A stretch of DNA of 64,000 nt from Terriglobia bacterium (GTDB lineage: Bacteria > Acidobacteriota > Terriglobia > Bryobacterales > Bryobacteraceae), in NCBI GenBank assembly GCA_025350105.1, contig JANXYJ010000014.1, positions 1 to 64,000 on the forward strand. Reading direction: 5' to 3'. Position numbers and translations under genes: made by a program. This document shows, piece by piece, positions 52,883 to 64,000 of this stretch. The first letter of the stretch is position 1; every line of letters begins with the position of its first letter. The notes under the pieces were generated by a model. That model saw nothing but the letters and a program-made list of their open reading frames with translations. It ran no database searches and was not told where the DNA came from.

Positions 52883-53608
52883 CTATTTCTTGGTATCGGC
52901 GGCCGCCGGCGCGTCCGCCGGCATAATCGACGCCGAGATGATGCGATCCAGGTTGGGGAAAGAACGATCAAGATACGGCTTACCCTGTGCGGTGATGCGG
53001 CCTTGATCCGGTGATTCACCATATCCAGCGAAAAATTTGTCCACCAGATCCATTCCTTCAAGCACGGTGCCGAAGGGAGCGAAACCCTGCCCATCCAACG
53101 ACGCGTTATCGCTATAATTGATGAAAATTTGCGTCGTGCGTGTGTTGGGTCCGGCAGTGGCAAAGGTCAACGTGCCGCGTTTGTTGGATTCGAGGACGCG
53201 ATCGTCTGGAATGCGAGCGTTCTCCCAAACGGCCGTTACTTCAGGCCGGGCACTGATCCCGAACTGAGCTACAAAGCGCGGAACAATGCGGAAAAATGCG
53301 GCGTTCGTATAGAAACCGTACTTCACTAAATTGTAAAATCGATCCGAACCGAGTGGAGCCCAACCCCGATTGACCTGAATAATCACATCGCCCTTCGTGG
53401 TGGTCAACTTCACCTTATAAGTATCAGGCGCCTTGTCTTTCAGCGTGCCGGGGTTCAGCAAACTCTTCGCCGTTGGAGCAGCTTTCGGTGCAGCCTTTGT
53501 TGGCGCAGGCGTGGGAGCCTTCTTCGAAGCAGGGGTCTGGGCCAGCGCGATTCCACACGCCAGCAGCGTCAGGGTCAAAATCTTTTTCATAAGGATCTGG
53601 ACCATCAT
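52883..53608 (-). CDS. Exported cyclophilin-type peptidyl-prolyl isomerase
   Basis: After a signal peptide (MKKILTLTLLACGIALAQ) and an Ala/Pro/Lys-rich linker of about 40 residues, a cyclophilin domain begins at 'YKVKLTTTKGDVIIQV'. 'FFRIVPRFVAQFGI' carries the catalytic Arg, and 'GPNTRTTQIFINYSDNASLDGQGFAPFGTVL' completes the active-site region. The ATG at 53608 overlaps the M24 peptidase stop by four bases; a second ATG at 53590 starts directly at the signal peptide. It should act in the periplasm. Confidence 0.9.
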   Translation of the reverse strand: MMVQILMKKILTLTLLACGIALAQTPASKKAPTPAPTKAAPKAAPTAKSLLNPGTLKDKAPDTYKVKLTTTKGDVIIQVNRGWAPLGSDRFYNLVKYGFYTNAAFFRIVPRFVAQFGISARPEVTAVWENARIPDDRVLESNKRGTLTFATAGPNTRTTQIFINYSDNASLDGQGFAPFGTVLEGMDLVDKFFAGYGESPDQGRITAQGKPYLDRSFPNLDRIISASIMPADAPAAADTKK

Positions 53609-54780
53609 AACAAAACCAGTTTCTCTTGACTTTCGCCCGTCACCCGTGCGCCGTCCTCAGACACGAAGACGTCCACTTCGCAGCGAATGCCAAACTCCGG
53701 CAGGTAAACCCCGGGCTCCACCGAAAAACAGGTCCAGGGAATCACTTTGCGCTCGTCATGGGTTTCCAGATAGTCCATGTTGGCACCGGTGCCGTGCACT
53801 TCTTCGCCAATGGAGTGACCGGTGCGGTGATAGAAATAATCGGCGAGTCCGTGCCCGGTGATGTGCCCGCGCGCGGCGTCATCCACTTGATAGCCGCGCA
53901 AGTCCTGCCTGTTCCTCACGCCGTCGATCACGCGCTGCACGGCCAGGTTGCGCGCATCCCGCACAATCTCAAAAACGTTTTGATATCTGTCCGGCGGCGC
54001 TTGCCCGCAATAGCCCACCCAGCAAATGTCGTAATAAACACTATTGGGCCGATTCAACTTAGCCCATAGATCGATCAAAACGGTATCGCCGATTTTGATC
54101 TCCGCGCATTGATCTTTTGAAGGCTCGTAGTGGGGATTGGACGCGTTCGCGTTCACCGCACAATCCGGCCCATGATCTGCAATTAAACCCTCTGCCGCGA
54201 ATCGACTGCGTATGAATTCACAAACAGCAAACTCAGTAATGCGTTCCTTGATTCGCAGTCGCTCGCTGATTTGCGAAAACGCCTGCCGCCGCACTTCGTC
54301 CACTTTGCGCGCCGCCTCCAAATGCATGTCCAATTGCTCCGGCGACCAGCGCGATTCAAACGTCTGAACCAGATCGGCCGACGTCGAAACCTCAAGGCCC
54401 AAACTGCGAATTAGCTCAAGGGTTCCACCATCCACCAGCGACACGTACGGCACAGAACAATTTTGCGAATACTGCATTGCGATGCGCCGCGCACTCCCGA
54501 CGATCAGCCGCAAACCGTCCACCAGCGAACTCCAACTGGTGTAGGTCTTTCGCGCGCCTGGCAAGTCGGCAAGGGTGTGTTCTTCGATTTTGTGGACCAA
54601 TCCGTAGGGCTCGCCCGTCGCTGGTACGAAGTAGAACCACCGGCGCGTCACGGGCGAACCGGGAGTAAATTGCAATACGCGATAGCCCAAAGGGTCCCGC
54701 CGATGATGATCGAAAAACAGCCAACCGTCCAACCCGGCCTCGCGCAGAGCAGCTTGAATGGAATGAATTCTGGAGTTCAC
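53605..54780 (-). CDS. M24 family metallopeptidase (Xaa-Pro aminopeptidase-like)
   Basis: The 391-residue enzyme has a creatinase-like N-domain and a pita-bread catalytic domain. The five metal ligands can be traced: Asp in 'TVLIDLWAKLN', Asp in 'SVYYDICWVGY', His in 'TGHSIGEEVHG' or 'ITGHGLADYF', Glu in 'CFSVEPGVYLPEFG' and Glu in 'IRCEVDVFV'. It probably removes N-terminal residues before proline in the cytosol. It lies next to the end of the tail module on the same strand, and its stop overlaps the cyclophilin start. Confidence 0.88.
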   Translation of the reverse strand: MNSRIHSIQAALREAGLDGWLFFDHHRRDPLGYRVLQFTPGSPVTRRWFYFVPATGEPYGLVHKIEEHTLADLPGARKTYTSWSSLVDGLRLIVGSARRIAMQYSQNCSVPYVSLVDGGTLELIRSLGLEVSTSADLVQTFESRWSPEQLDMHLEAARKVDEVRRQAFSQISERLRIKERITEFAVCEFIRSRFAAEGLIADHGPDCAVNANASNPHYEPSKDQCAEIKIGDTVLIDLWAKLNRPNSVYYDICWVGYCGQAPPDRYQNVFEIVRDARNLAVQRVIDGVRNRQDLRGYQVDDAARGHITGHGLADYFYHRTGHSIGEEVHGTGANMDYLETHDERKVIPWTCFSVEPGVYLPEFGIRCEVDVFVSEDGARVTGESQEKLVLL

Positions 54781-54828: not shown

Positions 54829-57816
54829 TCAGTTGCCAACCCGAATCACCCGGCGAGGCAAACGATTCAACGGCGCGCCGTAGCCAATCAAACAAAACTG
54901 GTCCAGCGCAAACAGAACCACGCTTTCCAGACCATTACCTAGCGCGTATTGCGCCTCCTTGAGCCAAGCCGCGTAGGAATCGCCAATACCCACCAGATGG
55001 CTTCGTTGACTGGCCGAAAAGGCCAAACTGGATCCCGAAGATGCCATGCCGTATAGGATGGTCTGAATGCTTTGATCCAGATTCTTGCCGAACGTAAAAC
55101 CGAAAGCTTCCGTCTTCAGGTTCGTGAGTTTCGCCGGTGTCCAATCGGAAGCTGGATAGTTGATCAATTTGTTAAACGCCGTTTGATTGACGTCGGTCGG
55201 ATACAGAACTTCAAACCTGCAATTGGGGTACGTCGCGCGCACATGGCTGATCACCGCTGACGTAAAATTGCCAATCACTTTTGGCAGATACGCAACCTCA
55301 TCCGGAACCGTTGCCGGGTCCACCGTATTCGTCGTGATGGTGGCCATCGTATGCCCGAATTGGGCTTGAAACTGGCTCTGGTTCTGCGCATCGTAAAACG
55401 GCATCCCGGAAAAAGTAACGCCCAACCCATCATTCGGAAAGTACCACCACTGCACTTCGCCAAACTGAAGAAACGGAACCAGCCCAGCCGCCACCTGCAA
55501 ATCCGCCATTCCTAAATAGACATCCTGCCAATACGCCAGACTCACCGGCGAAAAATTGGTTTGCAGCGAGGGCGTCGGTAACAGAATCGGATCGCCCGCC
55601 GGACCTACCTGCGCAATCCCAACCGCCGCCGATGGATCTCCGTTTCCCAACTCCATACTGAACGCCGCAGCCACGTCAATACCGTAATTCTGCAACGCGA
55701 TGTAGTACGCCGTGCTCCAATCGCGCGCCGCACGGTTCATGCGCGGAGACACCGTCAGGTCCGTGCGCCAGTCACCATCCACCCCTCCGGTGAATGCAGC
55801 GCCAGAAGCTGTCACGGTAAACCCGGCGCTCGTCGTCGACGCGGCAATCGTGTTCGAATTGCCGGCAGTTCCCATCACGCGGGAATGAATCGTCAGTACT
55901 CCACCGGCAGCTTCCGCCCAAAATCCTGTATAGCCGCGGCCTAATTCCAGCGCGTATACGGCCGCTATCCTGCTCGCCGTATCACCAACATGAATTAGCT
56001 TGGTCAATGCCGTTCCCGCAACCGTCACCGTCACTGAAAAGTTGGGCTGCGGGTTGCCCGTGAAGGTAACGGTTGCCGATGCGTATTGATGCCCCGTGCG
56101 AACCAACTCGTAAAACCACAACGCACCCGTATAGTGATTCGCCCTTCCAGTGAAGCCCAGACTCTGCAGGAACCACGCCGTGCGTTCCGGTGCAATGGAA
56201 ATCGAATGCAACGTATCCCAATCCGTCGCAAGCGTCGCCCTGGACGTTGCCGCAACCGTCGGCAACGTCGACGATGGAACGGCCAATTCCACAAAATCGA
56301 AATAGAAATCGCCAACGTTGGTGCTGGTCACCGTGACGGTGTGGTTCCCCACGCCATACTGCCCTAAAGGCCAACGAACCAGCGCATCTTCTCCGGAAAC
56401 CAACAAGTTCAATGTGCCGGCGGCAATCCCATCCACGGTAAACGCAACGGTCGCTCCGTTGCCGGTGAAGCGCGTCCCCACGTACAGCGTATGAGAATGC
56501 AGCGTGGTGTACCCGCATGTCACGAAATTCCCACTCATCGTCGAATGGTGAATCGTGCCTCCGGAATAGTTTCCTCGGACTTCAGACCACACCGCGTAGA
56601 CACTAACGCCTGCGGCATGCGCCGCCGCGACACTGCCGTTCATGGCGCGGGTAACGGTGAACACCGTACCTCCGCCCGCCACGCTGGTAACGATCATCAA
56701 TTCGTTGTCGATCTTCAGCAGGTCGCTCACCTGCGCCGTGCTCGGTGTGGATAGATGAATGGTGGTATCGGCAATCGCCACGCCACTGGCCAGCACCGGA
56801 GCGCTTGCCGCTACCAATGCATCGTGATACCCGACGCCCGGGGCGTTGTTTTCGATCCGCTGGCTTCCCGGACTGGCAACACTATAGACGCGATTGCTTC
56901 CCGTCACGGTCCAATTCGAAACCACCACCTGAAATTCCGTACGCACGAAGGCCGCCGCCTGCAAATCCGCGGCATAGGTCCAGCGCAACTTCCGGATGTT
57001 CGTTGTTGGGATGCTGTGCAGCGTTCCGTTGAGATCCGGAGTCAAGGTACCCTGCAACGAACTGAAGTCCAGGGAAACGCTCCATTGGGTTGGCGACGCC
57101 CCTCCGCTCAGCGTTCGTTCGACCGCATCCCAAGTTTCCGCGCCGGTCGAGTACGAATAGACGCCAACTCGATTTCCATTCACGCCCGTGGTGCTCGCCG
57201 CAAGCGTAGCGCCAGCGGTGTAATAGACCCGAACGGTTGCCCCGCTCGAGGTCGCCCGCAGAACCGTTGAAAAAGTATTGATGATGTCCCGGATCGCGGC
57301 CGCCGTCGTAGTCAGTGTGTCCACACCCAACACTTGATAGGTGTAGTGCTCCGTCAGCGTCGCCAGGCCCACATAGTCGCCGCTGGCCAGTGTGCCCGAC
57401 AAAGTGAAATCCGCAAAAGCGTTTTGATAAGCGCCTGCAACGGAGGTGGCGTGCAGCTTCAACGGCACCCAATAGATCGTCTCACTGCCGCCGGTTGGTG
57501 TGGCCCACACGCGCAGGCTGGGCCAATCCACGGTGGCGAACAGATCCGAATCGAGCGTGATGCAATTCGTACGGGTCTCTTTATATGTCAAGACCAGCCC
57601 GCTCAAGTCTCCGTCTGGCAAGTTTCTGAACGAAGGGTGTTCGTAAACGTTGTCGCGATTCCACTCCACCACGGCCCAATCGAACTGTTGCCGCCAACTT
57701 CCCGACAATGTGAACCCGTTCGCACTCGCGCTACTGAACGCCGCAATCGCAGAGGGCTGAAAATAGAAGCACTGCAAGTCTCGGTCGGGGCTTAATTTCT
57801 GAATGGATGACGGCAT
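54829..57816 (-). CDS. Large tail/fibre protein with putative glycan-acting C-terminal domain, 995 aa
   Basis: This last gene of the tail module encodes an elongated beta-rich protein. The N-terminus 'RDLQCFYFQPSAIAAFSSAS' has no signal peptide. Around residues 336-409 is a 70-residue module ('VLASGVAIADTTIHLS', 'LLKIDNELMIVTSV', 'RAMNGSVAAAHAAG') that recurs in the preceding tail-tip protein. Residues from about 740 ('YWQDVYLGMADLQVAAGLVPFLQFGEVQWWY') have the aromatic-rich look of a TIM-barrel glycosidase-like domain. It follows the tail-tip gene by 15 bases. Receptor binding or cell-wall cutting is inferred from position and composition. Confidence 0.7.
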   Translation of the reverse strand: MPSSIQKLSPDRDLQCFYFQPSAIAAFSSASANGFTLSGSWRQQFDWAVVEWNRDNVYEHPSFRNLPDGDLSGLVLTYKETRTNCITLDSDLFATVDWPSLRVWATPTGGSETIYWVPLKLHATSVAGAYQNAFADFTLSGTLASGDYVGLATLTEHYTYQVLGVDTLTTTAAAIRDIINTFSTVLRATSSGATVRVYYTAGATLAASTTGVNGNRVGVYSYSTGAETWDAVERTLSGGASPTQWSVSLDFSSLQGTLTPDLNGTLHSIPTTNIRKLRWTYAADLQAAAFVRTEFQVVVSNWTVTGSNRVYSVASPGSQRIENNAPGVGYHDALVAASAPVLASGVAIADTTIHLSTPSTAQVSDLLKIDNELMIVTSVAGGGTVFTVTRAMNGSVAAAHAAGVSVYAVWSEVRGNYSGGTIHHSTMSGNFVTCGYTTLHSHTLYVGTRFTGNGATVAFTVDGIAAGTLNLLVSGEDALVRWPLGQYGVGNHTVTVTSTNVGDFYFDFVELAVPSSTLPTVAATSRATLATDWDTLHSISIAPERTAWFLQSLGFTGRANHYTGALWFYELVRTGHQYASATVTFTGNPQPNFSVTVTVAGTALTKLIHVGDTASRIAAVYALELGRGYTGFWAEAAGGVLTIHSRVMGTAGNSNTIAASTTSAGFTVTASGAAFTGGVDGDWRTDLTVSPRMNRAARDWSTAYYIALQNYGIDVAAAFSMELGNGDPSAAVGIAQVGPAGDPILLPTPSLQTNFSPVSLAYWQDVYLGMADLQVAAGLVPFLQFGEVQWWYFPNDGLGVTFSGMPFYDAQNQSQFQAQFGHTMATITTNTVDPATVPDEVAYLPKVIGNFTSAVISHVRATYPNCRFEVLYPTDVNQTAFNKLINYPASDWTPAKLTNLKTEAFGFTFGKNLDQSIQTILYGMASSGSSLAFSASQRSHLVGIGDSYAAWLKEAQYALGNGLESVVLFALDQFCLIGYGAPLNRLPRRVIRVGN

Positions 57817-62935: not shown

Positions 62936-63544
62936 TTAGACCTCCCGAATAACATCGTTCAGAACCGTGGTTTCAAGCATGGCCTGACGCACCGCGTTCG
63001 CAATGTCCTGGCTGTGATCCATGAACGATTTGCTGTCCATGGCCTGAACCTGTATCGTCACCTGCTGTCCCGCACTCGTTCCATTCGAGCCGTTCAAAGT
63101 CGAAGCGCTGGAATTCGTAATCGGCCTCGGCAAACCACCCTGTGCCGAATCGACTCCGAAAAGCCCACTCCCCGACTCACTCACGCCCGCAGATAGATTG
63201 ATCGCTGCTGGCGGGATGTAACTGCTCAATGTCGGTACCGGCGACGAACCGCCACTGAAGAGCCCTTCAATCCCGGAAATCAGCGGGGCCAACCCAAATC
63301 CGCCCAATAGACCACCGAACGTACCCAAAGTCGAAGACAGCGCCGAACCAATCGATGGTCCGCTCGATTGCCCTCCACTCTGCACTGCGCTCTGCGATAG
63401 AGCTGCGTTTCTCTCCGCCGCCAGCGCATCATTGATGGCTTTCAGTTGCTGCAATTCGTCGGCGATACTGATCAGCTGTTCAGTCCCGTTGGAGCTTCCC
63501 CGCAGCAAACCCGCCAAAATACTATTGGGATCATTGGACGCCAT
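62936..63544 (-). CDS. Short tape-measure-like tail protein, 202 aa
   Basis: The N-terminus is a charged helix ('LISIADELQQLKAINDALAAERNAAL'), the centre is a Gly/Ser/Leu-rich hydrophobic stretch ('STLGTFGGLLGGFGLAPLISGIEGLFSGG') and the C-terminus is helical again ('DIANAVRQAMLET'). This layout and its place between the tail chaperone and the gpM-like genes suggest the tape measure, which sets tail length. It is far shorter than lambda gpH (853 residues) but near the size of the tape measure in the Rhodobacter gene transfer agent (around 220). It overlaps the end of the frameshift extension by 14 bases. Confidence 0.6.
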   Translation of the reverse strand: MASNDPNSILAGLLRGSSNGTEQLISIADELQQLKAINDALAAERNAALSQSAVQSGGQSSGPSIGSALSSTLGTFGGLLGGFGLAPLISGIEGLFSGGSSPVPTLSSYIPPAAINLSAGVSESGSGLFGVDSAQGGLPRPITNSSASTLNGSNGTSAGQQVTIQVQAMDSKSFMDHSQDIANAVRQAMLETTVLNDVIREV

Positions 63545-63875
63545 TTTTCAATTCCTGCCATTCTTTTTGAATCATCAACAACGCATCCGCGTCTTTTGCT
63601 GCAAAATTTGCAAGATTTCCGCCGCCCATCTTCCAGGCGAAAAACTTTTCCACCCACTCCACGCTCTTCGGATCGATGAACGACGTTGGGCACTCCTCCG
63701 TGAACGCACTTCCTCTGCCCCAAATCACTCTCGGCGCCCCGCGCTGCTCTTGTGGCAGCCATCCACACCGCCGCGAAACTTCCAACCCCTGCCGTCGGCA
63801 CTGCTCGCACGTCCACCCAGCACGATTTACGCTCCCCGCTTCCGGAGCGCAAAAAAAATGGAATGCGACAATTAG
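63531..63875 (-). CDS. Tail assembly chaperone, -1 frame extension (GT-like)
   Basis: This frame continues directly from the slippery site and runs 114 codons to a TGA at 63531. It reads LIVAFHFFCAPEAG, then 'WTCEQCRRQG' and the track ORF that begins LEVSRRCGWLP. The track starts it at a TTG (63785), but the same frame is open back to the slippery heptamer and holds no ATG, GTG or TTG before that TTG. A start there would cut off the CxxC pair. The extension is best read as the T part of a G/GT-type chaperone, which recruits the tape measure. It overlaps the tape-measure start by 14 bases. Confidence 0.6.
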   Translation of the reverse strand, partial: LIVAFHFFCAPEAGSVNRAGWTCEQCRRQGLEVSRRCGWLPQEQRGAPRVIWGRGSAFTEECPTSFIDPKSVEWVEKFFAWKMGGGNLANFAAKDADALLMIQKEWQELKNGVQ

Positions 63876-64000
63876 TTTTTTCTTTCTTCTCCGCTCAACC
63901 CGCTCTCGGCTTTAATCCGAATCAGGATCTCCTTGGCCAACTCCATCGGGCCCCGGTCGATAAATGTATTCGGCGTCGCGTCCTCGCCATCAATCGTCAG
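63872..64000 (-). CDS. Tail assembly chaperone, zero-frame C-terminal end (G-like), cut by window edge
   Basis: The frame enters at the right window edge and reads LTIDGEDATPNTFIDRG, then 'MELAKEILIRIKAESGLSGEERKN' and TAA at 63874-63872. It is not in the ORF track because its start is outside the window. The position upstream of the tape-measure-like gene and the slippery sequence at its very end match the G protein of the lambda G/GT pair. No family can be named from 42 residues alone. Confidence 0.55.
   Translation of the reverse strand: MTIDGEDATPNTFIDRGPMELAKEILIRIKAESGLSGEERKN
63875..63881 (-). promoter_or_regulatory. Probable -1 programmed frameshift site A AAA AAC
   Basis: In the zero frame the codons are AGA AAA AAC TAA, so the heptamer A AAA AAC stands in the correct X XXY YYZ phase directly before the stop. 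GGAG lies seven bases upstream, similar to the internal Shine-Dalgarno stimulator of dnaX. A CGCTCC / GGAGCG hairpin lies about 25 bases downstream. The -1 frame then stays open for 114 codons. Confidence 0.65.

Follow-up and report, generated by a model that had tools for sequence, protein, structure and literature searches.

The window analysed here, a stretch of 64,000 nucleotides from a Terriglobia bacterium of the family Bryobacteraceae, ends within a head-tail gene cluster of about 16.8 kb (Table 1). The cluster comprises, in this order, genes for a probable small terminase, the large terminase, the portal, a probable scaffold and the capsid, two small genes, the tail tube gene and the chaperone gene, the small terminase and scaffold labels being taken from position only. 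After the chaperone gene come a short tape-measure-like gene, two DUF2460-type genes, a J-like gene and the gene of a 995-aa tail protein. Wherever a contig allows reading, the gene order in relatives is identical. The matches of the terminase, portal, capsid and tail proteins are to Caudoviricete-derived particle proteins, and the capsid, which has a P22-coat-type match, is the most conserved protein (75-93% identity). Cellular genes lie on both flanks of the cluster, its GC content is that of the flanks, and none of the integrase, lysis or replication genes of a temperate prophage were recognised between the flanking cellular genes.

Table 1. Features of the predicted recoding site and of the surrounding cluster
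Feature	Position in window	Strand	Evidence or remark
Tail tube-position gene			phrog_290 (tail), E 1.7e-5
Tail-assembly-chaperone-like gene, zero frame, 3' part in window	63872..64000	-	Reading frame; fold matches to tail assembly chaperones
Slippery heptamer A_AAA_AAC	63875..63881	-	X_XXY_YYZ phase of zero frame; TAA directly 3'
-1 frame extension, 114 codons + TGA (63533-63531)	63531..63875	-	Predicted to be entered via the frameshift; four invariant Cys (C23, C26, C37, C62)
S1 5' arm (GUCGCAUUCCA)	63859..63869	-	Predicted 3' stimulatory stem, 5-6 nt past the heptamer
S1 3' arm (UGGACGUGCGAGC)	63803..63815	-	RNA pairing tests on relatives
Short tape-measure-like protein, 202 aa	62936..63544	-	phrog_3779 (tail length tape measure), E 1.6e-6; start overlaps the end of the extension
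DUF2460 tail protein, 119 aa	62574..62933	-	PF09343, E 3.2e-13
Second DUF2460-like protein, 266 aa	61772..62572	-	PF09343, E 0.0048, below the Pfam cut-off
Tail tip / J-like protein, 1305 aa	57832..61749	-	Phage-tail_3 PF13550, E 4e-10; phrog_31, E 1.6e-17
995-aa tail-associated protein, TIM-barrel domain	54829..57816	-	PF23845, E 1.3e-10
Cellular M24 peptidase gene, cluster border	53605..54780	-	PF00557, E 4e-34; same side in many other genera

Reading frames and protein products

The zero frame, which lies on the minus strand, has ...AGA AAA AAC TAA as its last codons, with the stop codon at 63874-63872. The initial annotation had noted an A AAA AAC in the correct phase just before this TAA, a -1 frame that is open for 114 codons with no usual start in its first 30, and the closure of that frame upstream of the site. 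All three observations were confirmed: the heptamer occupies 63881-63875, the first ATG, GTG or TTG of the -1 frame in the window is a TTG at 63785 (codon 31), and 5' of the site this frame has a stop 13 codons before the heptamer and is also closed farther 5'. It had also been proposed to extend the sequence to the right in order to see the gene start. In the remainder of the same contig (93,926 bases), an ATG was found at contig position 64279, 279 bases outside the window, which gives a zero-frame product of 135 aa. The predicted junction of the fusion protein encoded by the window is ERKN-LIVAF.

Sequence searches of Pfam, PHROGs and the PDB with either half of the gene gave no usable match and no named family. 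An AlphaFold model of the zero-frame product, built from the close relative L146 (pLDDT 77), has as its top fold match in the PDB the HK97 tail assembly chaperone 2ob9, but the match is weak (E 1.1, TM 0.40-0.49) and no sequence similarity was found. When this model was compared with BFVD, several proteins named tail assembly chaperone were hit with E values of 0.04-0.7, and the best match (E 3.7e-8) was an unnamed phage protein. A Foldseek search of the PDB with the model of the extension (pLDDT 89.5) gave no match; the four invariant cysteines of the extension suggest metal binding. The chaperone gene sits between the tail tube and tape measure genes, an order that is fixed in relatives, and its place before a tape-measure gene, as assumed in the initial annotation, is borne out by the next gene, which matches the C-terminus of the tape measure family phrog_3779. 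The label of tail assembly chaperone rests on this position and on a modelled fold whose resemblance is not decisive; we therefore infer the function and treat the protein as a putative chaperone.

Conservation of the heptamer and of the second frame

Searches of 237 genomes of the Bryobacteraceae-type family were carried out with each half separately. The first half was found in 195 and the second half in 196 of these genomes, nearly always as a single copy, and the match to the second half typically begins on the base where the match to the first half ends. For the analysis of the site, 102 genome loci with both halves were extracted; four more were left out, of which two have gaps in the assembly at the site, one is truncated by the end of its contig and one has lost the extension. 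The alignment of homologues, named in the initial annotation as a check on the heptamer, came out in its favour: among loci with both frames, A_AAA_AAC is in phase in 100 of 102 from genomes (the remaining two being one A_AAA_AAT and one altered site) and in 78 of 80 from IMG/VR contigs, loci that share descent and so do not amount to 180 independent events. The zero-frame stop follows the heptamer directly in 86/100 loci and one codon later in 12/100.

The codon that closes on the first A of the heptamer occurs in seven forms (CGA, AGA, ACA, AAA, ATA, GAA and GCA) for six amino acids, with only the A fixed. The Lys codon of the site is AAA in 100/100 loci, whereas elsewhere in these ORFs AAG occurs 280 times and AAA 109 times. 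Because the preceding codon varies over six amino acids and AAA is invariant despite the preference for AAG, the conservation of the heptamer acts at the nucleotide (DNA) level and not at the amino acid level. Both halves have diverged to 34-68% protein identity with those of the window, so that the survival of an unselected heptamer would not be expected.

Two genomes from sister families have kept A_AAA_AAC, and the divergent genus g8 has A_AAA_AAT in all three loci checked. In L023 (G235) both frames are kept and AGAGAAAC stands in place of the heptamer, which is either an assembly error or a real loss. L118 (G132) has lost the extension and retained the chaperone and the capsid. A second, divergent chaperone-extension pair is present in two genomes (L323 in G118 and L324 in G127), and in the second copy of G118 the same place is taken by another classic slippery sequence, G_GGA_AAC, which is likewise in phase. 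Weak matches to the extension were also obtained in two distant genomes of the phylum (L325 in G363 and L326 in G399); 33-39 nt 5' of the matched part, and in phase, there is an A_AAA_AAC in L326 and an A run in L325.

The second frame is conserved as a protein without a start of its own. A start codon for this frame in relatives had been named at the outset as an observation that would speak against a frameshift, and none is conserved: no ATG, GTG or TTG was found at a position common to all 102 loci. The tight overlap between the zero-frame stop and the -1 frame resembles that of coupled genes, and 52 of the 102 loci do have some ATG, GTG or TTG of the -1 frame within -15 to +12 codons, as might be expected if the extension were a separate gene whose translation re-initiates after the stop or begins there at an unusual start codon. 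However, these starts near the junction are mostly a GTG at -10, a by-product of conserved zero-frame Glu-Cys-Gly codons; 50 loci have none at all and only 12 have an ATG. Moreover, the conserved residues of the extension begin in the alignment at the first codon after the slip, and a separate gene would leave the fixed heptamer and a stem at canonical spacing unexplained. We regard such a gene as highly improbable.

RNA structure and the proposed frameshift

When applied to 100 loci, RNAalifold placed a stem (S1) that starts 5 nt 3' of the heptamer; the spacers most often studied are of 5-9 nt (PMC5009743). At extension codons 2 and 12, the choice of codon is restricted more than the protein sequence requires. 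S1 pairing is found in 93.5% of cells; the corresponding values are 83.6 +/- 0.6% for synonymous shuffles and 91.2 +/- 0.4% with synonymous codons permuted within columns. The genome loci served to define the stems, which were then re-tested on the IMG/VR loci, a second set that is not fully independent, as it was fetched with a query consisting mostly of near relatives of the window. S1 was better than its own synonymous shuffles in 98 of 99 genome loci and in 65 of 66 loci of the IMG/VR set. A second stem (S2), which would form a pseudoknot, was supported in 91/99 and 48/66 loci, respectively. Due to the shared ancestry of the loci, P values of the stem tests are nominal. The window itself has kept S1 (-12.0 kcal/mol, as against -6.3 kcal/mol for shuffles), with internal mismatches and an extra hairpin in the loop; the pairing of S2 as a pseudoknot was not supported against shuffles in the window's own sequence.

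Two other proposals were rejected. The GGAG pointed out in the initial annotation does lie 7 nt 5' of the heptamer in the window, but a role as a conserved Shine-Dalgarno stimulator did not hold up, since the best anti-SD pairing is no stronger than in synonymous shuffles (-4.74 vs -5.68 kcal/mol). Loss of queuosine as the reason for the choice of AAC was discarded as well: tgt, which modifies tRNA-Asn, is present in 7/7 genomes tested.

The site is a run of A, with nine or more of them in the relative L015, on which RNA polymerase could slip and yield mixed mRNAs in place of ribosomal slippage; however, we can give this scarcely any weight, as most loci have a run of just six A, neither the terminal C nor the phase varies, and slippage of the polymerase would not predict a stem that begins 5-6 nt downstream and is conserved beyond coding needs.

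From the comparison of sequences we are highly confident that the gene uses a programmed -1 ribosomal frameshift of the tail G/GT type. The initial annotation, which had proposed a -1 frameshift in a tail assembly chaperone gene, is thereby supported in its central point, the evidence being the conserved heptamer, the absent second start codon and the tape measure neighbour. As to slippage, its rate and the roles of the products, we infer that most ribosomes on the 135-aa chaperone frame would terminate at the TAA that follows A_AAA_AAC. A smaller share, held up by the stem 5-6 nt downstream, would shift back by one base on AAA AAC and read 114 further codons, which would result in a 249-aa fusion with a four-Cys C-terminal module. 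By analogy with gpG/gpGT of lambda, the short product may cover the tape measure protein, and tail tube subunits may be recruited by the long one, which would be rare.

The -1 frameshift of tail assembly chaperones is described as conserved in tailed phages by the accounts cited here (Xu, Hendrix and Duda 2004, as cited in PMC3711429; PMC5009743). The frameshift itself is therefore an expected feature of tailed-phage tails, for which the comparative evidence is unusually strong in the present case. As with lambda gpG/gpGT, the gene lies between tail tube and tape measure, a short and an extended product are predicted, the heptamer is near the end of the first frame and the direction is -1. Unlike in lambda, chaperone and extension are not recognised by Pfam or PHROGs, the extension has four Cys, and the site is an A_AAA_AAC with a conserved 3' stem, located in a vertically inherited bacterial cluster. 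The g-t frameshift of the haloarchaeal tailed virus HCTV-2 uses the same heptamer in the same gene pair (PMC5009743), but this virus is archaeal and the likeness is drawn from heptamer and gene pair. The present case provides a bacterial A_AAA_AAC site with a 3' structure. Points that weigh against the frameshift are that in E. coli A_AAA_AAC is much less shifty than A_AAA_AAG (PMC5009743), that tgt is present in the genomes tested, that two genome loci lack the exact heptamer, and that the PDB fold match is weak.

Distribution and nature of the cluster

The capsid gene is present in 198 of the 237 Bryobacteraceae-type (Acidobacteriota) genomes and in 70 of 76 genera, usually as one copy per genome. 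It is missing from 24 of 148 high-quality genomes, so losses occur. A search of 396 genomes sampled across the phylum with the extension profile gave matches in four, two of them from the window's genus; the named relatives belong to Bryobacterales, Bryobacteraceae and Solibacteraceae. Several IMG/VR contigs are 16-17 kb long, near the length of the cluster; these may represent parts of host genomes and not free phages. At least 13 genomes besides that of the window have the M24 peptidase gene next to the cluster on the same side. In g8, the most divergent genus, the cluster also adjoins this M24 gene (L308 and L309 in G046); in G046 the portal gene is immediately preceded by cellular genes, and a search of that genome for a homologue of the window's large terminase found none. 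A tree of chaperone plus extension from 24 genomes shares 12 of 21 splits with the RpoB tree and recovers all 10 starred RpoB branches. The spread of the capsid, the agreement with RpoB and the shared neighbour gene indicate vertical inheritance and co-diversification with the hosts. This distribution suggests a domesticated, vertically inherited phage-derived element, and it departs from the ordinary-phage setting that the initial annotation had assumed.

More than 100 entries in IMG/VR, where they are listed as viruses, carry the element, two genomes have an extra divergent chaperone-like copy, and the domesticated reading rests on sequence. These points would fit a temperate phage of the ordinary, widespread kind, intact or as remnants, which we nevertheless consider unlikely: 70/76 genera carry the element, as a rule in a single copy per genome, the trees agree with RpoB, the chromosomal neighbour is the same across genera, no integrase or lysis gene was recognised in the cluster, its GC content equals that of the flanks, and no close relative was found among 50,697 isolated phage records. 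A headless tail weapon of the tailocin type, in which the frameshift would serve tail building only, is very improbable; tail genes do dominate the window and the tape measure is short (mostly 166-250 aa in relatives), but portal, large terminase and major capsid are kept, with the capsid as the most conserved protein of all at 75-93% identity.

A domesticated element of this kind may be a gene transfer agent (GTA). By definition, GTAs have Caudoviricete-derived particle proteins and are endogenised, mostly vertically inherited and co-diversifying with their hosts; their particles hold mostly random host DNA, are too small for their own genome and deliver this DNA to other cells (PMC9662315). 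The parts of this definition that can be tested on sequence describe what was found here, and we call the cluster a candidate and not a member. Like GTAs such as RcGTA, it is a phage-derived head-tail cluster, endogenised and vertical, in which no integrase or lysis genes were recognised (PMC9662315); it differs from them in its P22-coat-type capsid match and in the bacterial phylum, and it is known from genes alone. We consider the chances evenly balanced that it is an undescribed GTA of the Bryobacteraceae-type Acidobacteriota that was domesticated independently of the known ones, and in which the host keeps the frameshift signal (heptamer and RNA structure) under selection for particles. 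Because the gene sits in a vertically inherited head-tail cluster, the frameshift is probably maintained for the assembly of a domesticated particle, possibly a gene transfer agent.

What deserves attention is that a family of soil bacteria has kept, in the majority of its genomes, a head-tail cluster with one gene order and an intact recoding signal. If the particles carry host DNA, there would be a gene transfer agent in Acidobacteriota, a phylum for which none is described in the open-licence literature searched. That selection still acts on a translational signal required for assembling the tail speaks for continued production of particles.
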